Source: Aurantiacibacter sp. D1-12
GTDB taxonomy: Bacteria > Pseudomonadota > Alphaproteobacteria > Sphingomonadales > Sphingomonadaceae
NCBI RefSeq assembly: GCF_028858515.1
Contig: NZ_JAPJZJ010000003.1
Location: 433,001 to 497,000 of the forward strand
Reading direction: 5' to 3'
DNA: 64,000 bases
In this document: positions 44,691-58,508 of the stretch, one piece after another
Layout of the letters: each line of letters opens with the position of its first letter
Numbering within the stretch: the first letter of the stretch is position 1
Position numbers and translations under genes: made by a program
Notes under the pieces: generated by a model
Database searches by the model: none
Told to the model about the DNA's origin: nothing
Seen by the model: only the letters and a program-made list of their open reading frames with translations

Positions 44691-44729
44691 CACTTTGCAA
44701 TTGATGCGGGGCTGAGGCAGGGCACAATC

Positions 44730-45986
44730 ATGATACGGCGCGCATTGACCAATACCGGCTGGCTGATGGGCGCCAAGGCGATCAACGCCGTGCTCAGCCT
44801 CGTCTACCTGGCGATTGCGACGCGCGAACTGGGGCCTGAACGCTTTGGCATTTTCGTCATCGCGTTCACCTTCGCGCAGCTGGTGGTCGGCTTTTGCAGC
44901 TTCCAGACCTGGCAGAGCATTATCCGATGGGGGCAGGAGGATGATGGCCGCAAGACTGCGACCGGGTTTGCCCTCGCGTTGGATTCCATGACTATTGTCG
45001 TTGGCGCGATCCTATCCGCGCTGATCCTGTTCAACTTTCACGAGGTGCTGCTGCTTCCGGACAAGATGGTGGTGCCCACCTATCTGTTCACTCTCGCCTC
45101 GCTGCTTTCCATCCGCTCGACGCCAACGGGCTTACTGCGATTGCATGACCGGTATGACCGTGCAGCATTTGCCGATGCCACGACGAGTATCGTGCGTGCG
45201 GTCGGCGCGGGCGTCGTCGTGTTTGTGAAGCCGAGCATCCAGAGCTTCCTGATCGTGTGGGGCGCTGCAGAAGTCGCCACCGCTGCGATCTACTGGTGGC
45301 TCGCCGCACGGACCGAGCCGATCCACTGGCAGCGCTATAGCCTGATCCGCCTTCCGCGCGAGGCAAAGGCACGCGGCGAGAAGGTCTGGAGCTTTGCCAT
45401 CGGTACCAGCCTGACCGGCATGCTCTCCATCGCCAGCCGGCAGCTTCTGGTCGTGCTCACCGGCATATTCGGTGGTGCTGCGCTGGCCGGTGTATACCGC
45501 GTGGCGAACCAGCTGGGAGACGGGCTGCTGAAGCTCGCTCAGGCGCTGCTGAAGGCGGTCTATCCCGAACTGGTGCGCAACCCTGATGTGGCGAAGGCGC
45601 TCACCGCGAAACTCACGAAGATTGCGATCTTCTCCGGGATCATCGTCGTCGGTTTCGGCATGCTGGCGGGTGAGTGGATCATCACCGCCATTGCCGGCCG
45701 CGAGTATCTCGCGGCCTTCGTGCCGATGATTGTGCTGGCGGGAGCCGCTTCGATAGAGCTGGCCGGAGCAAGCCTCGAAGCACTGCTCGTCGCGCGTGGC
45801 CATGCGATCCGTAACTTCCTGCTGCGCGGCATTCCGCTCGCGGCGGGTCTGATTGCTCTGCCGTGGCTGATCGACTGGTTTGGTGCAGTGGGCGCAGCGC
45901 TGGTTGTGCTGGGCACGAGCCTTGCCAGCGTGACCGGCTTTATCCTCGCTACGCGCGATCCGAAGGACGTCGATTTAGGGAAATAG
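44730..45986 (+). CDS. Polysaccharide/lipid flippase, Wzx-like (MOP superfamily)
   Basis: 418 residues with about twelve membrane helices and the start IRRALTNTGWLMGAKAINAVLSLVYLAIATRELGPERFG, typical of O-antigen or teichoic-type flippases. It probably moves a lipid-linked glycan across the inner membrane. The TAG stop at 45984-45986 directly touches the left copy of the 17-bp att repeat, so the element left this gene intact. Confidence 0.88.
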   Translation: MIRRALTNTGWLMGAKAINAVLSLVYLAIATRELGPERFGIFVIAFTFAQLVVGFCSFQTWQSIIRWGQEDDGRKTATGFALALDSMTIVVGAILSALILFNFHEVLLLPDKMVVPTYLFTLASLLSIRSTPTGLLRLHDRYDRAAFADATTSIVRAVGAGVVVFVKPSIQSFLIVWGAAEVATAAIYWWLAARTEPIHWQRYSLIRLPREAKARGEKVWSFAIGTSLTGMLSIASRQLLVVLTGIFGGAALAGVYRVANQLGDGLLKLAQALLKAVYPELVRNPDVAKALTAKLTKIAIFSGIIVVGFGMLAGEWIITAIAGREYLAAFVPMIVLAGAASIELAGASLEALLVARGHAIRNFLLRGIPLAAGLIALPWLIDWFGAVGAALVVLGTSLASVTGFILATRDPKDVDLGK

Positions 45987-46003
45987 TGGCTGGGGTGGCA
46001 GGG
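45987..46003 (+). repeat. attL, 17-bp direct repeat
   Basis: TGGCTGGGGTGGCAGGG, identical to the copy at 58363-58379, which is the 3' end of tRNA-Gln including CCA. It starts on the base after the flippase stop codon. The bases on both sides of the two copies differ, so the match ends sharply. Confidence 0.92.
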
Positions 46004-46079
46004 GCTAAAGTTGGACGCATGTTATCCCCATGGAACTCCTATATTCTCTTGTAAATCAGCCATTAGCGGACCACAAACT

Positions 46080-46102
46080 TGGCCCACAAAGCTGGCACAC
46101 AG
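46080..46102 (+). repeat. Candidate integrase arm-type site, left
   Basis: A 23-bp sequence (TGGCCCACAAAG then TGGCACACAG around one variable base) that recurs at 58291-58313 with 22 of 23 bases the same and in the same orientation. A shorter related unit (CCACAAACTTGGC) precedes it at 46071-46083. It ends 15 bp before the integrase start, so integrase bound here could also repress its own gene. Confidence 0.7.
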
Positions 46103-46117
46103 AGAATCGGAGAAGGC

Positions 46118-47551
46118 ATGGCTTCACTCCAAAACCGAGGCAACAAGTGGCGCGCGAAGGTTCGTATCCCGGCGGCCCTTAGGGACCAGTACGATAGCCG
46201 GGAGCACCTCTACCGGACCCTTAAAGCTCTCGACAGACCCTCTGCCAAAGCCGAAGCGGAAGTCTGGGAGGCAGGGCTGCGCTCAGAGTGGGCGGCTCAG
46301 CAGCCTGCGCCAGTAAATACACCTAGCGACCTTCGGCGTATCTATGAGGACGGGCGGCGTGCTGCGGCGGGAGGTGCTTACGTCGCCGATATGGATGTCG
46401 ATGAAGAGCCTGAGGTTATTGGCATCGATCTCGAGATCGACAAGCTCGCAGAGAAAGGGGAGGGACCGGGGCTTACGGAAGCCGACGAGGCTCGTCTTGC
46501 AGCTCTCAACGACGCCAAGCGTGATCGGCAGGGACTACCCGTCCCGAGGCGCAGGGAATATGAGCCAGGGTTCGCAGAATTGGCGGGGCGTTTTCTTGAC
46601 CTCTGGGCCACTCAATACGGGCTGAAGGCATCAAACACGCGGCCTCAAAAGGAGGCTACCTTCCGGCTCTTTGGGGGCTTCATTGGAGACAAGCCTTTGA
46701 GAGACGTGAAGCGTTCGGAGGTCGCCGACTTCATGGACGAACTGCGCCGCCTCAATCCCAACTATGGCAGGTCGCCCAAGTCACAAACGATGACATGGTC
46801 GGAGATCATTCGGGAGCACGGGGGGAACGCCAAGGGCCTCTCGCCACAGACTATGAATCGCCACATCGACACCCTTTCGGCTCTCTGGAAGTGGGCAGAT
46901 CAGCACGAGCTTGTCGATGGCCGAAACCCCTTTGCAGGCTTCAAACAGCGTATCAAAGCTGGCGTGAACCAGCATCCGTACCTCCCGTGGACTGCGGAGG
47001 AGCTGCGAACACTTTTCGACCCGCCACCGAAGCGTGATGACTTAACAGAACTCATGGTGGCAGCACTTCATACGGGCATGCGGTTGGACGAACTTGCCTC
47101 CCTCACGCTTGGTCAGATCAAGCAAGAGGATGGAATCCACTTCATAGATGTTAGGGACGCGAAGACGCCGGCTGGAGATCGGGCGGTGCCTTTGCATTTC
47201 CGGCTGCGGTGGATGGCAGAGCTTGAAGGCGAGCCACAGGACCGAGTGTGGCCCAAGTTCAACCCAGAGGGTCCCGGTAAGAAACCGGGCGCGGATGCGG
47301 GCAGGGCATTCTCCGCCTTCAAAGCCCGAAAGGGTTTCAGCGACCGGACGCGGGTATTCCACTCGTTCCGCAAGAACGTCACCCAGATCATGGAGAGGGC
47401 CGGAGTACCGGAGAACGAGTGGGCGCAGGTTCTAGGACACGAGCGGAACATTACCTACGGCCTCTACAATCCCGAGGGTATTACGTTGTTGCGGAAGGCG
47501 CAGCTAATAGAGCTGATTGAGTACCCGGGGATCGACTTTCCCGGAAGGTAA
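46118..47551 (+). CDS. int: Tyrosine recombinase / integrase of the tRNA-Gln element
   Basis: 477 residues from ATG 46118, which has a GGAG site 5 bp upstream; an upstream TTG falls in the arm repeat and is less likely. N-terminal arm-binding-type part (ASLQNRGNKWRAKVRIP), a SAM-like core-binding domain (about 155-270), then the catalytic domain with R322 (HTGMRLDEL), H415-x-x-R418 (HSFR), H441 (LGH) and nucleophile Y450. The set is complete, so it should be active. It cuts and joins the tRNA-Gln att sites. Confidence 0.94.
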   Translation: MASLQNRGNKWRAKVRIPAALRDQYDSREHLYRTLKALDRPSAKAEAEVWEAGLRSEWAAQQPAPVNTPSDLRRIYEDGRRAAAGGAYVADMDVDEEPEVIGIDLEIDKLAEKGEGPGLTEADEARLAALNDAKRDRQGLPVPRRREYEPGFAELAGRFLDLWATQYGLKASNTRPQKEATFRLFGGFIGDKPLRDVKRSEVADFMDELRRLNPNYGRSPKSQTMTWSEIIREHGGNAKGLSPQTMNRHIDTLSALWKWADQHELVDGRNPFAGFKQRIKAGVNQHPYLPWTAEELRTLFDPPPKRDDLTELMVAALHTGMRLDELASLTLGQIKQEDGIHFIDVRDAKTPAGDRAVPLHFRLRWMAELEGEPQDRVWPKFNPEGPGKKPGADAGRAFSAFKARKGFSDRTRVFHSFRKNVTQIMERAGVPENEWAQVLGHERNITYGLYNPEGITLLRKAQLIELIEYPGIDFPGR

Positions 47552-47676
47552 GCGAAGAGCATCCGGAACGTCCGCTAGCGACCCGATTGCTGACCTCACG
47601 GCATTGTCCCATCCGAGTTGAACGATGTGAGCCGGTAGGCTTCGCTAGGAACAGCGCCCCCTCAGATCGCATTTAT

Positions 47677-47692
47677 TGACAATATATTGTCA
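47677..47692. promoter_or_regulatory. MarR operator: perfect 16-bp palindrome
   Basis: TGACAATATATTGTCA is its own reverse complement, placed 20 bp before the marR ATG. It overlaps a TTGACA -35 (47676-47681); a weak -10 (TTATTT, 47699-47704) lies 17 bp on. That would start transcription at or next to the ATG, so the mRNA may be leaderless. A MarR dimer here would block RNA polymerase. Confidence 0.8.
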
Positions 47693-47711
47693 TTCCGGTT
47701 ATTTGCTGTCT

Positions 47712-48167
47712 ATGGCGATTCGAGACAAGAATGGTGAAGCACTTACGGCCCTGATTCTGGAGATATTCCGGATCAACGGGCAGATGCTCAGCGTTGGCAA
47801 TAAGCTCACCAAGCCATATGGCCTAACTAGCGCTCGCTGGCAGGTCATCGGTGCAATCGATGAAGAAGGGCAAGCGCTCACTGTCTCACAGATTGCTCGG
47901 CGGATGGGCCTTGCACGGCAAGGCGTCCAGAGGATCATAAACGATCTCGAAAAGGTCGGCCTTGTCGAAAGCAGGCCGAATATTGATCACAAGAGAGCGC
48001 CACTTTTCGCAATTAGCGACGATGGTGAAAAGGTGATGGCAGAGGTCAACAAAGCGCAGGTCGAATGGGTCAATGCGCTGGCCGAAGGCCTTTCCGTCCA
48101 AGACCTCAGTAGCGCGCTCAGCCTCCTGCAGACCGTTCGAGAACGGTCGGAAGAACCCAATTCTTGA
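47712..48167 (+). CDS. MarR-family transcriptional regulator
   Basis: 151 residues from ATG 47712; an upstream TTG would lie in the operator. Winged helix (LTVSQIARRMGLARQGVQRIINDLEKVGLVESRPN, with the wing HKRAPLFAISDDG). No clear ribosome-binding site precedes the ATG. It heads a cargo operon with an ABM monooxygenase (23 bp gap) and a cytochrome b561. MarR proteins release DNA on binding phenolic or quinone-like ligands, or on thiol oxidation. Confidence 0.9.
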   Translation: MAIRDKNGEALTALILEIFRINGQMLSVGNKLTKPYGLTSARWQVIGAIDEEGQALTVSQIARRMGLARQGVQRIINDLEKVGLVESRPNIDHKRAPLFAISDDGEKVMAEVNKAQVEWVNALAEGLSVQDLSSALSLLQTVRERSEEPNS

Positions 48168-48190
48168 ATAGACAGACTAAGGAATTCTAG

Positions 48191-48562
48191 ATGCCAAATC
48201 TCAAGGAACTAAACGACGCTGTAAGCCTGATGGACCAGCTCCAGACCAATGAGGATGGGTCTGTTGTCTTGATCAACATCTTCACAATCGATCCCGCTGA
48301 CGAAGAGGCGCTAATTGCGGCATGGACTCACGATGCTGATTTCATGAAAGCGCAGCCGGGCTATATCTCCACTCAGATGCACCAAGCAATCGCTGGCAGC
48401 CCTACCTTCTTAAACTATGCGGTATGGGAGAGTGTACAGAGCTTTCGGGCTGCCTTCACGAACCCGGAGTTTCAGGCTCGCATTGCCCGCTACCCCGACA
48501 GCGCCACCGTATCGCCGTATCTCTTCAAGAAGCTCGCGGTCGCGGGACACTGCGTTGCCTAA
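48191..48562 (+). CDS. Antibiotic biosynthesis monooxygenase (ABM)-family protein
   Basis: 123 residues, a single ferredoxin-like ABM domain (VVLINIFTIDPADEEALIAAWTHDADFMKAQPGYISTQMHQ, then FLNYAVWESVQSFRAAFTNPEFQ). Relatives include YgiN-type quinol monooxygenases, which act on quinols without a cofactor. An AGGA site lies 7 bp before the ATG. Placement between marR and cytochrome b561 suggests a role with quinones or phenolic compounds. Confidence 0.85.
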   Translation: MPNLKELNDAVSLMDQLQTNEDGSVVLINIFTIDPADEEALIAAWTHDADFMKAQPGYISTQMHQAIAGSPTFLNYAVWESVQSFRAAFTNPEFQARIARYPDSATVSPYLFKKLAVAGHCVA

Positions 48563-48623
48563 AGACACAGCGAGCCTCTCGCGGGTCAATCAGCCCGATT
48601 TGATCAAATTCAGGAACTGAACA

Positions 48624-49166
48624 ATGCCCTCAAAAAGCACGGCAACGCACTACGGCAATGCGGCCGTCACCATTCACTGGCTCACCGCAATCCTGATCAT
48701 TGCGCTGATCGGTTCTGGCTTCAACGCAGGTGATGCCGAGAATGCAGCAGCTAAGGCGGCGTTTTTGAGGGTTCACATCCCGCTCGGCGTGACGGTTCTC
48801 GTGCTTACGGTAGTGCGCATTCTCTGGTGGTTCTTCGCAGACAAGAAGCCAGACCCACTGCCAATGCCTGTCTGGCAAGATCGTATGGCTCGAGCAGTCC
48901 ACCTTCTCTTCTACATTGTGATTTTAGGGATGGCGGCAAGCGGCGTTGGCATGATGGTTCTGTCAGGGGCAGGTCCGATTATTTTTGGTGGCTCGGAGTC
49001 TGCATTGCCCGACTTCTGGGACTTCAAGCCGCGCTTCCCACACGGCATTGGTGGTAGACTAATTCTAGCGCTATTCGTCTTTCATGCGGGAGCAGCGCTC
49101 TATCATCAGTTCGTGAAACGCGATGGACTGCTTGGGCGCATGTGGTTTCCGAGAAGCAAGGACTGA
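48624..49166 (+). CDS. Cytochrome b561-family membrane protein
   Basis: 180 residues, four membrane helices. Candidate heme-ligand His residues lie in VTIHWLTA (helix 1), FLRVHIPLG (helix 2), RAVHLLFY (helix 3) and FHAGAALYHQF (helix 4). This family passes electrons between quinols and periplasmic or superoxide acceptors. An AGGAAC site precedes the ATG. It is the last gene of the marR operon; a hairpin follows. Confidence 0.9.
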   Translation: MPSKSTATHYGNAAVTIHWLTAILIIALIGSGFNAGDAENAAAKAAFLRVHIPLGVTVLVLTVVRILWWFFADKKPDPLPMPVWQDRMARAVHLLFYIVILGMAASGVGMMVLSGAGPIIFGGSESALPDFWDFKPRFPHGIGGRLILALFVFHAGAALYHQFVKRDGLLGRMWFPRSKD

Positions 49167-49188
49167 ATCCAACAAACGCTGTCTTCGC

Positions 49189-49218
49189 GTGTCCGCTCTC
49201 ACTCCCAAAAGCGGACAC
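49189..49218 (+). terminator. Hairpin after the cytochrome b561 gene
   Basis: Perfect 9-bp arms GTGTCCGCT and AGCGGACAC with a 12-base loop, 22 bp after the stop. The tail (CTGACTTTTGG) has only a short T run, so termination strength is uncertain. Confidence 0.5.
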
Positions 49219-49279
49219 CTGACTTTTGGCATTGAGACGCTGGCCTTTTCAGCAACCCGAATGGCCTCTGGTACGTCGA

Positions 49280-49330
49280 GAACTAATCGGCCTCATCGAT
49301 TATCCGAGTATTGATTTCCCGGGACGATAG
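49280..49330 (+). pseudogene. 3' remnant of a second, related integrase
   Basis: In frame, this stretch reads ELIGLIDYPSIDFPGR then TAG. The intact integrase ends LIELIEYPGIDFPGR then TAA, so 12 of the last 15 residues agree although the DNA has diverged. Weaker similarity may reach back to about 49254. The rest of the gene is gone. This marks an older integrase end left between the marR cargo and the phage-like genes. Confidence 0.75.
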
Positions 49331-49411
49331 GCCGCGCTGGGGTTGAGAGTTTTTGCTGTCCTACAGCCCCCGATGTGTGAATATCAGGCACCTCCAAGAT
49401 TCGGAGGTATC

Positions 49412-49504
49412 ATGATTGTTCTCGACGCTACTTTGATCTTCGCCTTTGCTGCGGTACTAACTGCGCTATCGACCATTGTTTGGTCTGTCAGGCGCAAGCC
49501 GTAG
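49412..49504 (+). CDS. 30-residue single-helix membrane peptide
   Basis: MIVLDATLIFAFAAVLTALS is followed by TIVWSVRRKP: one hydrophobic helix and a basic tail. A strong GGAGG site lies 5 bp before the ATG. It starts a run of three tightly packed small genes. Size and form suit a phage-type small membrane protein, but no family is recognised. Confidence 0.55.
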   Translation: MIVLDATLIFAFAAVLTALSTIVWSVRRKP

Positions 49505-49516
49505 GAAGGACACGAC

Positions 49517-49651
49517 ATGCTCAGGGAACTAGGAGAGTCGGACGATACGACGGCCCCGACATACAATGTTCCAGCTATCTTGGGTGTTTGCCTGTTTTGG
49601 CTTCTGATCGGCATAACAGCGCATTCAGTCATTTCGGCTGCCATTGATTGA
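49517..49651 (+). CDS. 44-residue membrane protein
   Basis: An acidic N-terminus (LRELGESDDTTAPTY) and one hydrophobic helix (about 19-40). GGAAGGA lies 6 bp before the ATG and overlaps the previous stop. The next gene starts 3 bp after its stop. Likely cotranscribed with both neighbours. Function unknown. Confidence 0.55.
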   Translation: MLRELGESDDTTAPTYNVPAILGVCLFWLLIGITAHSVISAAID

Positions 49652-49654
49652 GCC

Positions 49655-49870
49655 ATGACCCGCGACCAAGAGCTTTGGGGAGTGGCGCTCTGGGTCGAGA
49701 AGAACCACGGCGGCGATGGCCATGAATTCATCGCGGGCCGTGTGTCTACGCTTAAAGCACGGGGCGACGAGAGCGGCGCTGCTTACTGGGAGACGGTTGA
49801 GGAGCGGTTTTCAGCGCTCAGGACCGGGCCCATTTGTGTTTACGGCCAGCCGGAGACGTGGCCAAACTAA
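49655..49870 (+). CDS. 71-residue phage-associated protein (DUF6961-like)
   Basis: The start MTRDQELWGVALWVEKNHG and the AAYWETVEERFSAL helix match short proteins I recall from sphingomonad prophage regions, grouped as DUF6961; this was not checked. Soluble and helical. Last of three packed small genes. Confidence 0.6.
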   Translation: MTRDQELWGVALWVEKNHGGDGHEFIAGRVSTLKARGDESGAAYWETVEERFSALRTGPICVYGQPETWPN

Positions 49871-49912
49871 GCAGAGGCCGCCCATTCTGAGAGGCCGCCC
49901 ACGCGGGGTATG

Positions 49913-49932
49913 CAATTAGGACGGACCCTCGG
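49913..49932 (+). repeat. Element spacer motif, copy 1
   Basis: CAATTAGGACGGACCCTCGG, identical over 20 bp to copy 3 at 55879-55898; copy 2 (50157-50175) shares the 15-bp core AGGACGGACCYTCGG. All three are in the same orientation in non-coding DNA. A hairpin follows 2 bp later. Confidence 0.85.
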
Positions 49933-50156
49933 GGGTGAGAGCATCTCACACTGAAAGAGAACCTAAGGAGAACCACTAGGCTCACCTTCGGAGACACTTC
50001 AATTCAAAGACCTCCAACTGCGCAACTCCGACCCGAAAAACGGGCAAATACTCCCCCGCAGACCACGGGCGGGACCGCACGCCGCTCCCTAGTGAAATCC
50101 TCGATCCCTTCCGTGCTCTTACAGCGGTCTTGGAGAGGCAGACGGAGCTACTGCTG

Positions 50157-50175
50157 AAATAGGACGGACCTTCGG
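50157..50175 (+). repeat. Element spacer motif, copy 2
   Basis: AAATAGGACGGACCTTCGG, with the shared core but a T for C in the fourth-last region and a changed 5' flank. It lies 195 bp before the 267-residue gene. Confidence 0.75.
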
Positions 50176-50369
50176 AGATGGAAACTTGTCGCAACTCGAC
50201 GGTCGGGATCATTTTGAGTGCAGCCCGCTGCACCTCAGTGGCCCCCTCGAGTTCATCGGCAGCGCCCATATCCAGCCCGCGCGGCACGATGATTGGGAGT
50301 ACTCCCCGTCACTGAGCTGCATCCCTCCCACACAAGCAGTCGGGGCCTACCCGCAGATTGTGAATATAA

Positions 50370-51173
50370 ATGAACGACACAACTCCCTCTGACGAAGGCG
50401 GCGCAGCAGGCATGCGAGCCGCGGTCGCCAACTATGGCAGCCTCTCTAGCAATGACGAGAGCATCCCAGATGAGCATCGGCTCTACGCCGAGAAGATTTT
50501 GAAGATGGACCCGCTTGAAGACGTGCAAGCCAATGTGAGCGGTCCAGGCGGAGCTCGCCCCATGAAACTCAAGGCTTCCGGTTTGCCTAGCGATCTAAGC
50601 GCAGAGGTCTATAGGCGGCTCGAACGGATGCCCACCATGCCGCACGAAGAGCGCGAAAAGCACGAAAGCAACATTGTTGCAGAGGTGCTGAAAGAGCGCC
50701 GAGGTGCGTTGCGGTCTATCACTGGCGTACGCCCAGACTCGCTTCCCTTTCATACGGAGCAAGCCAACATCGCAATGCAAGTTCGCGGCCTCTATGAGAA
50801 GCGCAACAGTCTTCAGCGAGACATAGATCGAGTAAAAGATGTTCGGAAGTCCGAAGACCCGGAAACTGGCGAGGTTGTCGCCGAGCCGATCTATTGGTTG
50901 AGCGATACCAAGCGTGCGAACTTCGCAGATCAAGTCGTCGACATTGAGAGACAGGTACGCCTTCTCGTCAATGAAGACGGCACTTATGGTATCGAAGGCC
51001 TGAAACGGGTCCGAAAGGCGTTGGCTGAATCAGCAGCGCAGCTCCACCGACTTGACCTCCAGAGAGCCGAAGAGGCTGAGGCCAAGAAGCGAAGCGCGGA
51101 GATAAACCGCGATGCGCGGATCAACAGGCGGGCTGAAGCCTACGCCCGCATGTCGAGAGACGAAATCAAGTGA
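50370..51173 (+). CDS. 267-residue helical protein of unknown function
   Basis: A charged protein with little hydrophobic core; residues 125-165 (MQVRGLYEKRNSLQRDIDRVKDVRK) and 190-260 are strongly helical, with an Arg/Lys/Glu/Ala-rich tail likely to form a coiled coil. A TAA in frame directly precedes ATG 50370; ATG 50412 is an alternative start. No motif is recognised. The place before the M23 gene and the helical build would suit a virion scaffold or internal protein; this is inference only. Confidence 0.65.
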   Translation: MNDTTPSDEGGAAGMRAAVANYGSLSSNDESIPDEHRLYAEKILKMDPLEDVQANVSGPGGARPMKLKASGLPSDLSAEVYRRLERMPTMPHEEREKHESNIVAEVLKERRGALRSITGVRPDSLPFHTEQANIAMQVRGLYEKRNSLQRDIDRVKDVRKSEDPETGEVVAEPIYWLSDTKRANFADQVVDIERQVRLLVNEDGTYGIEGLKRVRKALAESAAQLHRLDLQRAEEAEAKKRSAEINRDARINRRAEAYARMSRDEIK

Positions 51174-51249
51174 GCTGACGCAGCGAAGCGTCACTCAATC
51201 GGCCCGAGTGGGCTGACCACAATCCAATGAAAACCACGGAGATCGACCT

Positions 51250-51384
51250 ATGGTTGACCTGTACCAGCCGCTCCTGCGGCACCCCAAGGCTTCCCTTTGG
51301 GACGACATACACGCTGCCCAAGCACTGGTCTCCGCAGACGAGGGAAACCCTCTATGCAAGACACTACCGCTCCTGAAGCCCTGA
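51250..51384 (+). CDS. 44-residue hypothetical protein
   Basis: MVDLYQPLLRHPKASLWDDI begins a short soluble protein. GGAG lies 8 bp before the ATG. It ends 19 bp before the next small gene. No family recognised; the call rests on ribosome-binding site and spacing. Confidence 0.4.
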   Translation: MVDLYQPLLRHPKASLWDDIHAAQALVSADEGNPLCKTLPLLKP

Positions 51385-51403
51385 CAGGGCAACGGGGCCA
51401 TGC

Positions 51404-51568
51404 GTGAGCGCCCCGCGGACATCCCGCAAGGCCGCAATCGATGCGAAATGCAAAGACTGCATATACGACCCGATAGAGGCTGGAGGATGGCGACAGCAAG
51501 TTGCCGCATGTACCTGCACAGTCTGTCCGCTCTATCCTTTCCGGCCAATGCCCCGGCAGCGCTCCTAA
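51404..51568 (+). CDS. 54-residue Cys-rich protein resembling small podovirus proteins
   Basis: From GTG 51404. A basic start (SRKAAIDAKCKDCIYDP) leads to WRQQVAACTCTVCPLYPFRP. Five Cys residues (C-x2-C, then C-x-C-x2-C) could bind zinc. I recall very similar short proteins near structural genes of marine T7-like podoviruses, but this was not checked. No in-frame ATG is available, so GTG is the likely start. Confidence 0.6.
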   Translation: MSAPRTSRKAAIDAKCKDCIYDPIEAGGWRQQVAACTCTVCPLYPFRPMPRQRS

Positions 51569-51630
51569 TCGCCGCTGTGGCCTGAGAAAGACCCTAAAAG
51601 GCTGGCATATTCAGACAATCTGAGCCGCCT

Positions 51631-51686
51631 TTGGGGTCAATCCCCAAGCCACCCTGCACATTCCTTTTTGCCAGCGTTTTGCTGGC
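51631..51686 (+). other. Two hairpins before the zinc-finger gene
   Basis: TTGGGG/CCCCAA (51631-51636 with 51642-51647) and GCCAGC/GCTGGC (51670-51675 with 51681-51686, loop GTTTT) stand in tandem 12-67 bp before ATG 51698. They may be a structured leader or a weak terminator. Confidence 0.4.
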
Positions 51687-51697
51687 GTGGGGGCAGC

Positions 51698-52117
51698 ATG
51701 AAGAACGATATTTGCCAAGCCCACTCAAGTGGCTCAGCCCCCGTGCTTCAAGAGAAGCGCTGCACCAAGTGCCAAGAGACGAAGCCGCTTGATCGCTTCT
51801 ACTTTCGCCGCGCTGCGGACCCCACCGGTCCCCGGCGGTCTAGCTGCAAGGCCTGCGATAACGCCGCCACCGCGGCACGCCGTCGCAACGGCCCGTCCCT
51901 CGACAGCAGGATACGGATGGAGCTGCTTGAGCACGGGTCCGATAACCCCGAGGCGCTCAGTCCCGAGGTTAGGGACGCGGTATTCACAGAACGGCCAATC
52001 GACCCGAAAGTTCTCGCGGATTACCGCGAGAGGCAGAAGGCCGAGGCCAGACGAGAAAAGCGGAGACAGCGTGCCAGACGCGGACGCAATCAGTATGCAA
52101 TCGCGGGCGTGCTATGA
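51698..52117 (+). CDS. Two-CxxC zinc-finger protein like the N-terminus of phage HNH nucleases
   Basis: 139 residues from ATG 51698. RCTKCQETKPLDRFYFRRA and a second SCKACDNAA give C-x2-C ... C-x2-C, the arrangement found at the start of many phage HNH endonucleases. The HNH core itself is absent; the rest is highly basic (RREKRRQRARRGR). It is probably a nucleic-acid binder. The stop overlaps the next start (ATGA). Confidence 0.6.
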   Translation: MKNDICQAHSSGSAPVLQEKRCTKCQETKPLDRFYFRRAADPTGPRRSSCKACDNAATAARRRNGPSLDSRIRMELLEHGSDNPEALSPEVRDAVFTERPIDPKVLADYRERQKAEARREKRRQRARRGRNQYAIAGVL

Positions 52118-52386
52118 GCGGGTTTCGGTACTACCTGGGCATTCACGGCGAAACCGTGCCTGTCCGAGACCACATGATCTCAACTGTGCGGCTTGACCAT
52201 GGAATGGGCGCTTATCCATTTGCGGAGATCGCAAAGGGCTTGGGCGACAGACGAGACAGGTTTGCCTCCCTCTGCCAAACCGCTCCATGGATCGACAGCG
52301 CGTTGAGTTTGAAGGCCGTGCGCGCGGTGCTGGCTCCTAACGGCGGTCGCTTTCGGCGCAAAAATCCGAAGCGGCATATACGCTAA
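52114..52386 (+). CDS. 90-residue basic hypothetical protein, coupled to the zinc-finger gene
   Basis: The start overlaps the previous stop by 4 bp. Soluble; SALSLKAVRAVLAPNGGRF and a basic end (RRKNPKRHIR). No family recognised. Confidence 0.55.
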   Translation: MSGFRYYLGIHGETVPVRDHMISTVRLDHGMGAYPFAEIAKGLGDRRDRFASLCQTAPWIDSALSLKAVRAVLAPNGGRFRRKNPKRHIR

Positions 52387-52515
52387 CGACAGACGCGTGT
52401 TCCCCCCATAGGGGGCGGCGCCGAGTAACACATCCGCCGCGCTCCCGCTCTCGCTCCAAATGTTACCGGACGAGATGCGTGGACGCGGCGGGCCGTGCCT
52501 TAAGAAGGGGCGGGG

Positions 52516-52629
52516 TTAGGAATTACGGTCGCCGTCGAGGAACTTGCTGAGACGCTCCCGTGCCGCCTCGGCTCTTCCCTTAATGTGCAGGTCAATGCTG
52601 TCGCTTGCTTCATGCTGATTGTCGGTCAT
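52516..52629 (-). CDS. 37-residue protein, opposite strand
   Basis: MTDNQHEASDSIDLHIKGRA begins a short helical protein ending in RLSKFLDGDRNS. A strong AGGAG site lies 7 bp before ATG 52629, which is the main support. It is the only minus-strand gene in this part of the element and is divergent from the M23 gene, so it could be a small regulator. Confidence 0.45.
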   Translation of the reverse strand: MTDNQHEASDSIDLHIKGRAEAARERLSKFLDGDRNS

Positions 52630-52858
52630 CTGTTCGCTCCTATTCGTGTGGAAGTGCGGAGCTGCACCGGATCGCAGCATCTGTGAACCACATGGTTCCA
52701 CAAGGTAGATAGTAACGAGTCCAGCCGAGTCCGTTTCGCGGTGAAGCGAGCGTTTTGGGCGTCCCGAATCCTCGACGCCGAACCAAACCACTATCCAAAA
52801 ACCCCAAACGTGTTGCATCCCAGCCGAGCGGCTGCGCGGCAGCGCCGAAAGGTCTATT

Positions 52859-55042
52859 ATGAACATCGGAGACGACAACCCGCGCATTCAGCGACAAGCG
52901 AGCCGGGTCTCCAACAAAGATTCAATCGTGCCCGGAAGGCGCAACACGCGCGCGCCGGAACTCGAGACATTCGCGAGCTTGCGACACTCCCGGAGGGGTG
53001 ACGTAGGCGGCGCTCAAGAACTTATGCGGAGCCTCGGGATTGCCGAGGAAGGCGTAGAGGACTTGGGCAATGCTCAGTTCAATCAATATGTAGAGGACGA
53101 GCAAGGCAACATCGCGCAAGGCGCACTCGACGTACAATCGGACTCCGTTGACGACGAGATGATGGAGCGCAGCTTGGGCTACCGCAATGCGGTTACCAAG
53201 GGACGCACTGTCACGGGCTTCACTGAAGCTGCCCGCGAGTTCTCCGACGAACTCGAGACGGTTCTTGAAGCGCAGGACAGCCCGCTCCTCGAAGTGAGGC
53301 GCTCCGAAGCGCTCGGCATGACAGAGAGGTTCTTCGAGAACTTCGCGGTCAACCCGGAAACCGGGGAGCTGCGAGAATATCTCCAGTCGCCCGGAGCCAT
53401 GCGGTACCTGGCAGAGACCATACAGACCGTCCGGCCTCAGTTTGAAGCCAACGCAATCCAGCGAATTGAGGAACGCTTCAACAGGGAAGCCCTCTCTCAC
53501 TTCAGCCAAAACGTTGTGAACCAAGTCGAGGAGACTGGCGTATTTGACGTAGAGGCCGCTCTATCGCTCTTGCCCGATACTGTGACGGACGAAGAGGCCT
53601 CCGAGACTCTCCTCACTTCCGTCTTCAACGCATACAACGTGCTCAGGTCCGCAGGACGACGCGAGGAAGCGGTTGCGTTGCTGGCGTCCGTCCGTGGCCA
53701 CTTCGACACGCCCGTGGACGCTGGAGAGGCCACAGCACGGCCCTCAGGCCTTCCCTCAACGGGCGGTAATCGCGAAGTGCTCCGAATGCCTGTACAGGGC
53801 CGGATCACATCAGAGTTCGGCGAAGGCCGCGGGAACGGCACACACAACGGCGTAGACATTGCTGTCCCCGTCGGTACCCCGGTGCCTGCCGCAATGGGCG
53901 GCGAGGTGCTCCGAGTGTGGACGGCGGATCGCGGAGGTCTCTCCATGCGGGTCCGCTACGACGACGGAACGGTCGTGGGCTTCGCGCACTTGTCCGAAAC
54001 GAACTTCGAAGCAGGCGCTCGGGTCAGCCCGGGAGACACTCTGGTTCTGACAGGGAATAGCGGACAGAGCACCGGGCCGCACCTCCACTACACGGTAACT
54101 CGGGACGGGCAGAAAATGAATCCGCTGGAGGCGGAGTTTGGTCCTGTCTCCGTTGACGCAAGCGCGGTTGAAGGTGGCGCACCCCCGGCGCGTCTTCGGG
54201 ACCCGAATGAGGACCCTATTACCGCCCTTGAGAACTCCGGCGAGATCGTCCCGATCCCCGGCCTCGACCAAGTACACTTCTCTGCCGATCAAGTGGCACG
54301 ATTGAACCAGTTCTATCGGGAAGCCACCGCGTCGATGCGCCGAGAATGGAATGCCGCCAATGAGGACAGGTACGCCGAGAGCGCAACCAATCTGGCCCTT
54401 GGTATGTTCGGGACTGGGGACCGCATAACGACCCGCGAGGACATCCTACGCGCTTTCGAGAATGGCGAGGTAGACGGCGAAGCTGTCATGACGCTCATTC
54501 GCCTCCATGAGGGGCGGGAAGATCGCATTGAGAGCCGACGGGAGCGTGCCGAGAGTCGTGCAGAACGCGAAGAGCGACGGCGACAGGCGAACCGAGTAAA
54601 CGCAGGATCGGAAGTCCTGATCGGTCGGATGATCCGGGGAGAACTGTCTCCAGCGCAGGCCCGTCAGGCCGCCTTAGGTCTTGCAACACGGCTAGACGAT
54701 ACAGAGGTGGCATCTGCCCTAATCGCGTCTGTGAACTCCGCAGCCGGAAGCTACGAAAGCGCGCTCCAGAACAGCGCGCCTGTGCGGGACGCAATGGCAG
54801 AGTACGCAGAGCTGGCAGAGGACCCATCAGGATACCTTGCGGGCCTCAATCTACCCCGTCATCGCATGGCTGTGGCAGAGGAAGCCTTTATCGACATACT
54901 GGATCGAGCACAGGGGCGTCTCATGCGCCGCCTGATGGACGGAGAGGACCCTCAGGAAGCCCGCGAAGCCGTTGAAGGCTGGGTGGCCCAGCAAGAGCGC
55001 CTGATGGTGCAGGAACTCACTCCGAGTTCCCCGCAATATTAG
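52859..55042 (+). CDS. 727-residue protein with internal M23 metallopeptidase domain, virion-protein-like
   Basis: No signal peptide. Residues 1-300 are helical and unassigned. An M23 (LytM-type) peptidase domain spans about 305-430 with the zinc and catalytic set H329-x3-D333 (HNGVD), H377 and H408-x-H410 (HLH), all intact. Residues 450-727 are helical, with an Arg/Glu coiled coil near 553-575. M23 enzymes cut peptide bridges of peptidoglycan. A large cytosolic protein with the domain in the middle fits a virion-associated cell-wall hydrolase that acts on infection, not a lysis enzyme. AAAGG lies 6 bp before the ATG. Confidence 0.8.
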   Translation: MNIGDDNPRIQRQASRVSNKDSIVPGRRNTRAPELETFASLRHSRRGDVGGAQELMRSLGIAEEGVEDLGNAQFNQYVEDEQGNIAQGALDVQSDSVDDEMMERSLGYRNAVTKGRTVTGFTEAAREFSDELETVLEAQDSPLLEVRRSEALGMTERFFENFAVNPETGELREYLQSPGAMRYLAETIQTVRPQFEANAIQRIEERFNREALSHFSQNVVNQVEETGVFDVEAALSLLPDTVTDEEASETLLTSVFNAYNVLRSAGRREEAVALLASVRGHFDTPVDAGEATARPSGLPSTGGNREVLRMPVQGRITSEFGEGRGNGTHNGVDIAVPVGTPVPAAMGGEVLRVWTADRGGLSMRVRYDDGTVVGFAHLSETNFEAGARVSPGDTLVLTGNSGQSTGPHLHYTVTRDGQKMNPLEAEFGPVSVDASAVEGGAPPARLRDPNEDPITALENSGEIVPIPGLDQVHFSADQVARLNQFYREATASMRREWNAANEDRYAESATNLALGMFGTGDRITTREDILRAFENGEVDGEAVMTLIRLHEGREDRIESRRERAESRAEREERRRQANRVNAGSEVLIGRMIRGELSPAQARQAALGLATRLDDTEVASALIASVNSAAGSYESALQNSAPVRDAMAEYAELAEDPSGYLAGLNLPRHRMAVAEEAFIDILDRAQGRLMRRLMDGEDPQEAREAVEGWVAQQERLMVQELTPSSPQY

Positions 55043-55139
55043 GGAGGGCTAGGTCGGCTCCCGTGCGCAACATGATTGCGGCGGGGGCGGCCTATCAGCA
55101 TCGCATGTGTCTTTATGGGGCATGGCTATTGGAGACATA

Positions 55140-55226
55140 CTTATCGGACACTCTTTCTGTCCATTTAGGGTTGACTTAGAGCTTATCGGACATTATCCAC
55201 CGGGACTCTAGACCCTAAATGGACAG
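55140..55226. promoter_or_regulatory. res-like recombination site before the serine recombinase
   Basis: CTTATCGGACA occurs as direct repeats at 55140-55150 and 55182-55192. A perfect 15-bp inverted repeat (CTGTCCATTTAGGGT at 55157-55171, ACCCTAAATGGACAG at 55212-55226) is interleaved. The units share a GGACA half-site; the first pair (55140-55168) makes a 29-bp inverted dimer site, the size of a resolvase site I. It ends 8 bp before the recombinase ATG, so it may also be its operator. Confidence 0.65.
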
Positions 55227-55234
55227 GAGGCACC

Positions 55235-55783
55235 ATGGCTCAGACCATCGGCTACGCCCGTGTGAGTACGAAAGACCAAGACTGTAGCATTCAAGAGGAA
55301 GCACTCCGTGCCGCAGGGGCGGCGGTTGTCCGCTCCGAGAAGAAGAGCGGAGCCACAACAAAGGGGCGGGCAGAACTCAAGACCATCCTCGATTTTATGC
55401 GGTCCGGAGACACGCTTCTAGTGACCCGTATTGACCGTCTAGCGAGGTCCGTTAGAGACCTTGAGAAGATCGTGGAGGCCCTCGAAAAGAAGGGCGCACA
55501 CCTACGCGCAACAGAACAGTCAATTGATACCTCGTCCCCGGCGGGACGGGCGTTCGTGCAAATGCTGGCAGTGTTCGCCCAGTTTGAATATGACGTACGC
55601 AAGGAGCGCCAAATGGAGGGCATCGAGAAGGCCAAAAGGAAGGGTGTATATAAAGGCCGCAAGCCAACCGTTCCTGTCGAGAAGGTACGGGAGATGAAAG
55701 CAGACGGCGTCGGTGCAAGTGCCATCGCCCGGGAGCTGAAGATCGCGCGCAGCAGCGTCTACAAGGCACTGGAGGGGGCCTGA
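55235..55783 (+). CDS. Serine recombinase (resolvase/invertase family)
   Basis: 182 residues. The catalytic domain has Ser11 in GYARVSTKDQ and the RIDRLARSVRDL segment; the C-terminal helix-turn-helix is VGASAIARELKIARSSVYKALEG. Length and layout are those of Tn3-type resolvases and DNA invertases. A strong AGGAGG lies before the ATG. With the res-like site upstream it may resolve element multimers or invert a segment; no clear second site was found. Confidence 0.92.
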   Translation: MAQTIGYARVSTKDQDCSIQEEALRAAGAAVVRSEKKSGATTKGRAELKTILDFMRSGDTLLVTRIDRLARSVRDLEKIVEALEKKGAHLRATEQSIDTSSPAGRAFVQMLAVFAQFEYDVRKERQMEGIEKAKRKGVYKGRKPTVPVEKVREMKADGVGASAIARELKIARSSVYKALEGA

Positions 55784-55878
55784 GGATTTCTGTCGGTTTG
55801 CTTCCGGGCCTCTGATGCCCTGCTTTGTTTTTCTTATGACGGGCCGCTTCGGATTTCTGCACCAAAACCAACGGGTTT

Positions 55879-55898
55879 CAATTAGGACGGACCCTCGG
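55879..55898 (+). repeat. Element spacer motif, copy 3
   Basis: Identical over 20 bp to copy 1. It lies 95 bp after the serine recombinase stop, in the 249-bp spacer before the convergent SRAP gene. A further inverted repeat (GGGTA/TACCC, 55929-55947) follows. Confidence 0.85.
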
Positions 55899-56032
55899 AG
55901 GGCAGAGAGGATAAGGTATCTCTATAAGGGTACCTGTAGGCTACCCTCAGGGGCTCTTTCGGTGCTCTTCCAGATGGCCGGGAGTTGTGCACGGGTATCT
56001 CTCACCTCTGCCTCTTTACGGCCTCCGCCCCC

Positions 56033-56617
56033 CTAATCCTCCTTTACAGCCATCAATTGGGAAGGAAACGGCACTGCAAGGTTCTGTGGATCATCACCTG
56101 CCAGCCACGCATCGTAGCATTCCTCAGGAAGGATCACTGGCATCGCTTTGGGATGCCGTGGAGCCACGAGGGCATTTGGTTCACATGTGAGGAAGGCGAA
56201 TACTCGCCCAATATCGCTCTCTCTCCATATCCCTGCGAACGCTGCAACTGGACGGGATGGAATAGAAAACCAGTACTCCTCGCGGCCTTGCTTCGGCTCA
56301 GCAAACTCGGTGAACGGCACCAAACACCTTTGTGGAGGGTTTGCCAGCGTTGAGCGCCAAAACGGGCTGGTCAGGTTCCGCACGTTTGTGATGTACTTGG
56401 TAGTGGTGGTGCCGGGGCGTTTGCCCTTCAAAGTGAGCGGAACGCCCCATGTAGCTGTGTCGACTACTCTGCCGTGCTTCTCCTGCCTCACGACATACCC
56501 CAGACGGCGCGGCCACAAATCTTCGGCGGGCTTTTTGTCGAAGTCTGCGAAGGATGCACGTTCTATCGCAGCCCACTCGCGCATCTGTTTTTCGAGGTTT
56601 CTGTAGTGGTTGCACAT
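56033..56617 (-). CDS. SRAP-domain protein (HMCES/YedK type)
   Basis: 194 residues. The catalytic Cys2 directly follows the initiator Met, and N78 (ITNVRNL), E104 (VPFTEFAEP) and H155 (RHPKAMPV) match the YedK set Cys2, Asn75, Glu105, His160. SRAP proteins form a thiazolidine crosslink with abasic sites in single-stranded DNA and so shield them from cleavage. The gene is divergent from a Y-family polymerase and shares a LexA box with it, so it should be induced by DNA damage. Confidence 0.93.
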   Translation of the reverse strand: MCNHYRNLEKQMREWAAIERASFADFDKKPAEDLWPRRLGYVVRQEKHGRVVDTATWGVPLTLKGKRPGTTTTKYITNVRNLTSPFWRSTLANPPQRCLVPFTEFAEPKQGREEYWFSIPSRPVAAFAGIWRESDIGRVFAFLTCEPNALVAPRHPKAMPVILPEECYDAWLAGDDPQNLAVPFPSQLMAVKED

Positions 56618-56672
56618 GAGCGGTGTTCATCCCGTCATCCAGCTCAAAAAGTCAAGTGCCTAACCGCCGTAT

Positions 56673-56687
56673 GTTCGCTATATGTTC
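56673..56687. promoter_or_regulatory. LexA box (SOS operator)
   Basis: GTTCGCTATATGTTC matches the alphaproteobacterial LexA consensus GTTC-N7-GTTC exactly. It lies in the 93-bp space between SRAP (56 bp from its start) and the polymerase (24 bp from its start), so LexA bound here can repress both. Confidence 0.88.
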
Positions 56688-56710
56688 TAATCCCCGATTC
56701 GGAACATGCG

Positions 56711-57958
56711 ATGCGTAAGCCAACACATATAGAACGCCTCTATCTCGACTTCGATGGCTTCTTTGCGTCCGTTGCCCAGCAGGTGCGTCCCGAGCTGCGT
56801 GGGCGTCCCGTGGGCATCGTTCCGTTCTCTGGGGGGAAGGCGTCGTGTGTAATTGCCTGCTCTAAGGAAGCGAAGGCGCTGGGTCTATCCAACGTGATGC
56901 CAGTGGGCGAGGCTAAGCGGGCGTGCCCTGATCTTGTGCTGGTGCCTCAGCAGCCGCACCTCTATCGCAGAGCACACAATGCCCTAATTGCAGAGATCGA
57001 GAGCATTGTCCCTATCGACGCGATCAAGAGCATCGACGAGCTGACATGCAAGGTCGACCCGGAACAGCGGCAAAGGCCTGAAGACCTTGCGCGGTCCATC
57101 AAGCGAACCATCGGGGAGAACATCGGACGCCATATCACGTGCTCGATTGGCTTTGCCGCCAATAGGCAACTCGCCAAGATGGCTTGTAAGATGGACAAGC
57201 CTGACGGTGTGACGATCTGGCACCCTGAAGACATGCCGGGGCCGTTACTGACTGTTCCGCTCAAGGATATTCCCGGCGTTGGCACCAACATGGCCAAACG
57301 TCTCGCGCGAAGCCGCATCTTCACTACAAAAGACTTATACGAGACAGCCCCCAAACAGATGCGGAAAATCTGGCGCAATGTCACAGGTGAGCGGCTCTGG
57401 TACGCGCTGCATGGCTACGATGTACAGGCCCCCGAGAGCCGCAGGGGGATGTTCGGTCACGGGCGCGTGTTGCCACCCGAGTGCCGCTCGATTGAAGGTG
57501 CAAGGGATATATGCCGCGTCCTGCTAACCAAGGCAGCACGTAGGTTAAGACGCGAAGGCTATTACTGCTCGGGCGTCTGGCTCTGGTTGGATCATGGTGA
57601 AGGCGGCTGGAGCGGCAAGCGTACCCTTCCTACAGTTCATGACGATCAGGCTTTGTTATCGGAGTTTCAGGTACTTTGGGAGCAGGCTGCTGCACAGCTA
57701 TCACGCCGAACCAAGATATACCGCATTGGCGTAACGCTGTTTGACCTCTCCCCTTCAAACAGCCGTCAGCTTGATTTTCTATTAGCTGATGACAGCGAGC
57801 GTCAACGGTGGGAGGCGATCAACAGTGCCATCGATCTGCTAAATTACAAATGGGGCAAGACGGTTGCCAGCGTCGGGTTCTGGCCGCGCGAGTATATAGA
57901 GAACATCGGCGGTAAGATCAGCTACACCCGCATTCCGAGCGCTGAGGACTTTTGGTGA
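56711..57958 (+). CDS. Y-family translesion DNA polymerase (DinB/UmuC type)
   Basis: 415 residues from ATG 56711; longer frames run back into SRAP and are rejected. The palm has D13 and D15 in YLDFDGFFASV with Phe steric-gate residues 17/18, and SIDE at 107-110 gives catalytic D109/E110 (followed by LTCKV where DinB has AYLD). Helix-hairpin-helix DIPGVGTNMAKRL lies at 187-199. A candidate beta-clamp motif, QLDFL, is at 353-357. It should copy damaged DNA. It is SOS-controlled by the LexA box and coupled to a zinc-ribbon gene. It may belong to a group separate from chromosomal DinB. Confidence 0.92.
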   Translation: MRKPTHIERLYLDFDGFFASVAQQVRPELRGRPVGIVPFSGGKASCVIACSKEAKALGLSNVMPVGEAKRACPDLVLVPQQPHLYRRAHNALIAEIESIVPIDAIKSIDELTCKVDPEQRQRPEDLARSIKRTIGENIGRHITCSIGFAANRQLAKMACKMDKPDGVTIWHPEDMPGPLLTVPLKDIPGVGTNMAKRLARSRIFTTKDLYETAPKQMRKIWRNVTGERLWYALHGYDVQAPESRRGMFGHGRVLPPECRSIEGARDICRVLLTKAARRLRREGYYCSGVWLWLDHGEGGWSGKRTLPTVHDDQALLSEFQVLWEQAAAQLSRRTKIYRIGVTLFDLSPSNSRQLDFLLADDSERQRWEAINSAIDLLNYKWGKTVASVGFWPREYIENIGGKISYTRIPSAEDFW

Positions 57959-58212
57959 TGGGAAGCTGGAAGACGAAACTGCGAGCGAACGATCTGCCCG
58001 AGAACTGCAAACTGGAAGCCTCTTGCCGGAAGTGTGGCCATGTACGCTACCTTTCGCAGAGCTATTTAGTTGCGGAGAGAGGGGCAGGGCACCTTTATAT
58101 TGATCAGATAGAGAACCGCTCCCGTTGCCAAGTGCTGGGTTGTGGCGGCGGCATGAGACTGGCCATGATGCACGGTGGTCAGACTAGCGGATTTGTTGGC
58201 GGAATGGCGTAG
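57958..58212 (+). CDS. Small zinc-ribbon protein coupled to the polymerase
   Basis: 84 residues; the ATG overlaps the polymerase stop (TGATG). CRKCGHVRYLS and a later RCQVLGCGGGMRL give C-x2-C and C-x4-C, a likely zinc ribbon. Basic and soluble, so possibly a DNA or polymerase binder. Coupling predicts production in step with the polymerase. No family is recognised. Confidence 0.75.
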   Translation: MGSWKTKLRANDLPENCKLEASCRKCGHVRYLSQSYLVAERGAGHLYIDQIENRSRCQVLGCGGGMRLAMMHGGQTSGFVGGMA

Positions 58213-58290
58213 TGCGAGCCGAACGACGCTTAGGCCCCAGAGGTGAGCACGGAGGACGGCAGCGAGCCATGCCGCTCTGGCCCCCATGTC

Positions 58291-58313
58291 TGGCCCACAA
58301 AGTTGGCACACAG
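58291..58313 (+). repeat. Candidate integrase arm-type site, right
   Basis: The partner of 46080-46102 (22 of 23 bases). It lies 50 bp inside the right att copy, in the 150-bp non-coding end of the element. A short TAAATCAGC is also shared between the two ends. Confidence 0.7.
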
Positions 58314-58362
58314 GCTCGTTAAATCAGCACTAAATAGCTGAATAGAAATGAATTTAATACTC

Positions 58363-58437
<75 letters not shown>

Positions 58438-58461
58438 GCAGAGTTGCGCCCATATAGCCGT

Positions 58462-58493
58462 GTGGCCGCGCGGTGCAAGGCCGCGCGGCGCAC
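58462..58493 (-). other. GC-rich hairpin between the glutathione transferase gene and tRNA-Gln
   Basis: GCCGCGCGG and CCGCGCGGC (58465-58473, 58481-58489) with an outer GTG/CAC. No T run follows on either strand, so it is not a classical terminator; it may help set tRNA 5' processing or slow read-through. Confidence 0.4.
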
Positions 58494-58508
58494 AAATTGT
58501 GATTGGTA

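Follow-up and report, generated by a model that had tools for sequence, protein, structure and literature searches.

The window analyzed here is a 64,000-nucleotide stretch of the Aurantiacibacter sp. D1-12 genome (contig NZ_JAPJZJ010000003.1, positions 433,001 to 497,000). It carries an integrative element with, at one end, a gene for a SRAP protein, a gene for a Y-family DNA polymerase transcribed divergently from it, and a downstream gene for a small four-cysteine zinc-ribbon-like protein, designated ZnR (Table 1). The predicted polymerase start lies 24 bp from the end of a GTTC-N7-GTTC box, and the SRAP start lies 56 bp from the box on the opposite side. The ZnR start (ATG at 57958 or GTG at 57955) overlaps the polymerase stop codon (TGA, 57956-57958). 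Both the exact box between the divergent genes and the overlap of the polymerase stop with the zinc-ribbon start had been pointed out in a first-pass annotation, and both were found at the positions given there. A scan of 55700-58500 for sigma-70 promoters and terminators found none. A PADLOC search with seven proteins gave no match, and a role in anti-phage defense was therefore rejected.

Table 1. Features of the integrative element and of the polymerase locus within it (window positions)
Feature	Position	Strand	Basis
Integrative element, 12,376 bp, at tRNA-Gln 3' end	45987..58362	.	Direct repeats, empty sites
att repeat TGGCTGGGGTGGCAGGG, distal copy	45987..46003	+	Exact repeat, 0.02 expected
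Tyrosine integrase	46079..47551	+	PF00589 8.1e-9, phrog_1 5.2e-35
SRAP protein (YedK/HMCES family)	56033..56617	-	PF02586 5e-18; alignment of 25 SRAPs
LexA box GTTCGCTATATGTTC between divergent SRAP and polymerase genes	56673..56687	+	
Y-family DNA polymerase, 415 aa	56711..57958	+	PF00817 2.5e-36, PF11799 1.6e-11
ZnR, 84-aa four-cysteine zinc-ribbon-like protein	57958..58212	+	C-terminal SGFVGG-like tail conserved
att repeat, copy within tRNA-Gln 3' end	58363..58379	+	
tRNA-Gln (TTG), integration site	58363..58437	-	

The proposed location on a mobile element was borne out by a tyrosine integrase, a 17-bp direct repeat, and empty sites in three of six same-genus loci. The repeat has exactly two copies, one at each end; it came from the empty-site comparison, an earlier 20-base probe having matched one copy only. 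At loci L151, L152, and L155, the flanks (44488-46003 and 58363 onward) are joined without the element, and the junction was read directly in L152; at the other three loci compared (L153, L154, and L157), both flanks were not seen joined. Because the repeats lie at the ends and the flanks are joined in empty-site genomes, the element was sized at 12,376 bp. Its G+C content is 57.8%, below the 61% of the flanks. Besides the trio, it carries MarR, antibiotic-biosynthesis-monooxygenase, and cytochrome b561-type genes, an endonuclease-VII-like gene, a phage endolysin/internal-protein-like protein, and a resolvase; no capsid or terminase was found among the subset of element proteins scanned. A 29-bp repeat with a AATTAGGACGGACC core occurs three times (49913-49941, 50156-50184, and 55879-55907), is intergenic-looking and confined to the element, and looks like a group of phage-type binding sites or promoters.

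Tyrosine integrases were in view at related loci as well as in the window (L057, L058, L115, L132, and L135). L132 adjoins a tRNA-Ser and L058 a tRNA-Glu, on the same side as in the window, and at L057 a tRNA-Ser adjoins the integrase. Qipengyuania algicida has two copies of the trio (L056 and L057), on separate contigs with unrelated flanks, and the trio block is the sole part that they have in common with the window. Compared with the Q. algicida copies, dN was 0.07 to 0.08 for the polymerase, 0.18 to 0.19 for ZnR, and 0.18 for SRAP, with dS at least 1.4 or saturated; purifying selection acts on each of the three genes. Since the trio is found on plasmids, prophage-like contigs, and integrative elements, it might mainly serve the element, along the lines of a suggestion in the first-pass annotation: SOS induction would coincide with excision, and the set would aid replication or diversification. 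However, no replication genes were identified adjoining the trio in this element, and the same unit is found on unrelated element backbones, so that we regard this explanation as very improbable.

Next, the GTTC-N7-GTTC box, the LexA motif of Alphaproteobacteria in the available text of PMC3323433, was assessed. Its significance could not be argued from counts: the pattern occurs twice in the window, against 1.72 expected, and 59 times in the genome, versus 74 for the reversed pattern, which is chance level in both. Conservation is what sets the box beyond chance. At 77 of 80 loci (the best 80 of at least 507 confirmed genome relatives of the polymerase), the box stands no more than 250 bp ahead of the polymerase gene; it is absent from L115, L128, and L134. 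The reversed pattern was found at 1 of 80, and random 260-bp windows gave a mean of 0.5 of 80 and a maximum of 3. When these best 80 of at least 507 were grouped into 28 clusters at 75% identity, every member had the box in 26 clusters and at least one member had it in 27. The box was also found in all 17 viral contigs that extend 250 bp beyond the polymerase start (2 further contigs end too early), in 5 of 5 plasmid loci, and in 8 of 9 more distant relatives. It lies 26 to 62 nt upstream of the polymerase in one orientation and approximately 40 to 113 nt upstream in the other (43 forward and 34 reverse among the best 80 of at least 507). Its center is A/T-rich, and a T precedes the second half-site in 39 of 42 distinct boxes, as it does in the window box and in the host recA and uvrA boxes. 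The host has 18 boxes ending in TGTTC, and 12 loci with such boxes were examined; at 8 of these the neighboring gene is of a repair or SOS type (recA, uvrA, uvrD, rmuC, the gene of a second Y polymerase, and S24 repressor-like, RadA-like, and radical-SAM genes), and at 4 it is not. The E. coli-type box CTGT-N8-ACAG does not occur in the window. By its conserved operator at the promoter, the locus thus fits the predicted LexA regulon of Alphaproteobacteria. Elsewhere in the host genome, two tandem GTTC-N7-GTTC boxes (G000:C4:327852-327900) lie approximately 300 bp upstream of an rpsB-looking gene, an unexpected place for SOS control.

The polymerase is a Y-family enzyme, with an IMS palm/finger domain, the catalytic D and DE residues, and a little finger. 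D13, D109, and E110 were invariant in 63 aligned polymerases, and the fold matches DinB/Dpo4 structures (TMt of approximately 0.8). More specific assignments failed. The best score against the classical DinB (Pol IV) equivalog was 155 bits versus an NCBIfam cutoff of 367, and that against UmuC (Pol V) was 76 versus 431. Inspection of the window by eye found no UmuD beside the polymerase; ImuB was rejected since the catalytic residues are kept and no ImuA or DnaE2 genes were seen beside the polymerase in the same inspection. In the polymerase tree, which the first-pass annotation had called for, the ZnR-bearing polymerases formed one clade (support, 100/97) and DinB proteins stood apart; E. coli UmuC fell on the ZnR-clade side, by a branch too long to trust. 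One match, at 32% identity, was found when phage records were searched with the polymerase. The enzyme is probably error-prone.

Two further motifs were recognized toward the C terminus. QLDFL at 353-357 is clamp-like and resembles the QxxLF motif described in the accessible portion of PMC12926913. A RecA-N-terminus-like helix follows at approximately 356-382 (AF2 helix at 361-381, low-confidence tail), in the same order after the clamp motif as the RecA-NT motif in the available text of PMC6511836. The segment from 356 to 392, chosen by eye, aligned without gaps to the host RecA N terminus with a score of 33, which none of 2,000 shuffles reached; the E. coli UmuC segment, a control, reached no more than 15 with this RecA. 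The polymerase tail beyond is conserved, as it also is in polymerases with small subunits (PMC6511836, in the part available). The same tail is kept in a sister clade of polymerases that has no ZnR, so that it is not a ZnR-specific dock. That sister clade includes the host's second Y polymerase (G000:C4:700911-702167), which lies behind a separate box, GTTCCTATTATGTTC, and lacks ZnR.

The linkage of polymerase and ZnR was then examined at the best 80 of the at least 507 relatives. The linkage was not selected for, since the search was made with the polymerase and the neighbors were inspected afterwards. ZnR lay downstream of the polymerase at 79 of these best 80 of at least 507 loci, within 600 nt at 78, at 628 nt in L129, and not at all in L134; 2 of the 78 ZnR genes are cut by a contig end (L066 and L103). 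At least one member of each of the 28 clusters (75% identity, best 80 of at least 507) had it. A script scored start/stop overlap at 54 of the 79 loci and a distance of up to 15 nt at 8; it left 17 unresolved, among which 3 have real gaps. ZnR was present at 18 of 19 viral loci (the 19th stops within the gene), at 7 of 9 distant relatives with 44 to 52% polymerase identity (L036 and L038 had no match), and at 0 of 9 sister-clade loci. The polymerase and ZnR are therefore the basic conserved unit, in place of the trio that had been proposed as such.

This distribution bears on the view of the polymerase as an ordinary SOS-induced DinB/UmuC-like enzyme that acts by itself, with SRAP and ZnR in separate repair steps and the cassette serving host damage tolerance. 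The sister clade, common in the order, has the box (8 of 9 loci) and does without ZnR, as that view would have it, and SOS control is accordingly older than the ZnR partnership. The confinement of ZnR to one clade, in near-fixed linkage, points instead to a joint job, and we consider a polymerase acting alone improbable.

Plasmids gave a more mixed picture. Among 25 plasmid records with the polymerase (E of 1e-60), 12 with 57 to 65% identity also hold ZnR in the record, and the other 13 polymerases, at approximately 35% identity, are absent from the ZnR list; adjacency was read in five records. Conversely, 24 of 36 plasmid records with ZnR have no polymerase at E of 1e-60, so that ZnR may serve a separate purpose there or survive as a remnant. 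Three of these polymerase-free records were opened, and none has an annotated polymerase nearby. In two of them, from Aeromonas bestiarum and Acinetobacter bereziniae, the neighborhoods are closely similar, with aminoglycoside-resistance genes on one side of ZnR and tet(Y) on the other; their ZnR homologues are approximately 41% identical. The third, from Rhizobium BT04, is a partial ZnR match. Aeromonas salmonicida pBY3 has both polymerase and ZnR beside tet(Y), and the polymerase-free tet(Y) copies may therefore be remnants of a segment of this kind. Across 240 genomes of the class, ZnR was found in four, the host included, and lay beside the polymerase in three. The fourth (G246) has a weak ZnR-like match (2.6e-6) without a polymerase, 1.1 kb from a SRAP gene; that neighborhood (L172:2412-4533) also contains a nuclease-like gene and integrases.

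Binding of nucleic acid is common among zinc ribbons, and ZnR could thus bind nucleic acid or have a regulatory function in mobile elements, being simply co-transcribed with the polymerase and forming no complex with it. The 24 of 36 plasmid records without a listed polymerase and the weak relative near SRAP and a nuclease-like gene fit such a protein. Set against this, chromosomal and viral ZnR genes lie nearly always directly downstream of the polymerase, often with start/stop overlap; two of the three polymerase-free records opened share similar tet(Y) neighborhoods and may be hitchhiking remnants; and in the unbiased class sample the polymerase adjoins ZnR in three of the four genomes, the host's own included. 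On balance, we judge simple co-transcription unlikely, though it is the most serious competitor to a polymerase-ZnR complex.

ZnR itself is a family tied to the polymerase clade: models in Pfam, PHROGs, NCBIfam, and PADLOC did not match it, nor did any phage record, and the PDB gave nothing under E of 0.001 by profile or fold, so that a known zinc-ribbon fold was rejected. Cys23, Cys26, and Cys57 are invariant, and Cys62 is 98% conserved. The AF2 model, built from an alignment of the window protein (P0003) with 65 of 72 nonredundant references (plasmid rows L050 to L055 and the overlong L102 were left out), is of middling confidence overall (pLDDT, 76.6; pTM, 0.58), with a compact core at pLDDT 80 to 87. 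Residues 74-84 have pLDDT below 50, yet F79, G81, and G82 within them are 98 to 100% conserved. Disordered tails that are conserved are often binding peptides, and that of ZnR may bind the polymerase.

The SRAP gene proved to be a less constant neighbor. The search for the three genes together found them recurring in the window, at 7 of 80 loci with a shared box, and on one plasmid, from Maritalea, which has the full trio with its box; a SRAP gene within approximately 5 kb of the polymerase was seen at only 18 of 80 loci (10 of 28 clusters), divergent and adjacent in 8 and otherwise nearby in 10 (all among the best 80 of at least 507). A fixed polymerase-SRAP-ZnR trio was ruled out by this count. 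The box is shared by 7 of the 8 divergent SRAP genes (L056, L057, L058, L080, L116, L132, and L135, not L115), and among SRAP genes that do not share the operator, downstream ones included, 0 of 14 rows have a box at a distance of up to 250 bp. Since the genomes of the group carry one to three SRAP genes each (38 of 41 genomes), we estimate that approximately 1% would be expected within 5 kb by chance. In the SRAP tree, the divergent set requires five label changes, four of them forced by well-supported branches: L135 groups with canonical SRAPs, L080 with chromosomal ones, and L054 among the downstream ones. SRAP is thus a recurrent, optional partner, the SRAPs at these loci coming from several lineages. 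We read the tree as repeated recruitment of SRAP, with losses able to explain part of the label changes; given the several lineages, the number of trio loci was rejected as proof of a single origin.

The window SRAP has the Met-Cys start and the Asn, Glu, and His expected of a YedK/HMCES-type active site, by which it is assigned to that family. Cys2, Asn78, and Glu107 are present in 25 of 25 aligned rows and His155 in 23 of 25, some rows being duplicates (L028 and L029 repeat the window and L058, and the SRAPs of L023 and L131 and of L052 and L071 are identical). These positions, matched by eye, are equivalents of YedK Cys2, Asn75, Glu105, and His160 as given in the available text of PMC9436759; the subfamily here differs in belonging to mobile elements. 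Catalytic residues are kept in both the polymerase and SRAP. The closest solved relatives of the SRAP are 2aeg and 1zn6, which are unstudied proteins. In the host genome, the element's own SRAP and one of approximately 61 bits (G000:C6:220801-221394) were seen; a distinct chromosomal SRAP of approximately 80 to 108 bits, present in most same-genus genomes searched, was not found there.

These results indicate that the locus is a real SOS-controlled mobile polymerase cassette, with a predicted function. We infer that the cassette is induced, that the polymerase binds RecA, the clamp, and ZnR, and that lesions are bypassed and abasic sites capped, and we give an even chance to a working model in which an SOS-induced mobile translesion polymerase acts with RecA, ZnR serves as a UmuD'/YolD-like small subunit, and SRAP covers abasic sites. 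Upon DNA damage, RecA would inactivate LexA and free the single box, so that the polymerase-ZnR operon would be switched on and, with genes arranged as in the window, SRAP as well. QLDFL would let the polymerase load on the sliding clamp, and its RecA-N-terminus-like helix would bind RecA. ZnR, translationally coupled, would fill the UmuD'/YolD role of a small regulatory subunit and would bind the polymerase, probably by its conserved disordered tail. The complex would copy past lesions, with mutation as a by-product, and SRAP would covalently cap abasic sites in single-stranded DNA, protecting those not bypassed.

Mutasomes with a UmuD' or YolD small subunit resemble this cassette in having an SOS-type box, a Y-family catalytic subunit that carries clamp and candidate RecA-NT-like motifs ahead of a conserved tail, and a small protein from an overlapping gene; here, however, the small protein is four-cysteine zinc-ribbon-like and encoded downstream of the polymerase, and no UmuD or YolD homologue was found in the loci read. 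Association of SRAP with UmuCD, ImuAB-DnaE2, and DinB, and its place beside SOS polymerases, have been published (PMC3765255 and PMC12926913, in the portions available). Aravind 2013 (PMC3765255), as far as its text was accessible, likewise describes SRAP beside Y-family polymerases and in prophages; it also reports two zinc-ribbon-like domains in SRAP-Ku neighborhoods, comparable with ZnR by description only, whereas the loci read here have no Ku or ligase. A UmuC-like polymerase with a SRAP-like protein is one of 11 predicted complexes in the available text of Timinskas 2026 (PMC12926913), which likewise ties the two together; by description, that text names neither a zinc-ribbon partner nor this alphaproteobacterial group. 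A zinc partner is not mentioned there outside the references, nor in the accessible part of PMC6511836, and no report of a ZnR partner was found in the open-access literature. The new part of the cassette is ZnR together with the recurrent capture of SRAP at the operator.

More broadly, and with odds that we put somewhat short of even, PolY-ZnR-RecA may be a third small-subunit type of mutasome that arose independently of UmuD and YolD and that integrative elements, prophages, and plasmids spread among Alphaproteobacteria as a cassette under SOS control, with different SRAP lineages captured at the operator and abasic sites divided between capping and bypass. The small subunits of mutasomes decide when error-prone polymerases act. 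If the proposal is true, a third, unrelated small subunit in one mobile polymerase clade would mean that such control evolved repeatedly, and the polymerase and ZnR would offer a compact two-gene system for studying small-subunit function. Because SRAP blocks abasic sites and Y-family polymerases cross them, and the two are repeatedly paired at one operator, the choice between capping and bypass would be directly testable in bacteria. The findings suggest a portable damage-tolerance kit with an unrecognized helper subunit and bear on how mobile DNA increases mutation, or tolerance of damage, in its hosts.
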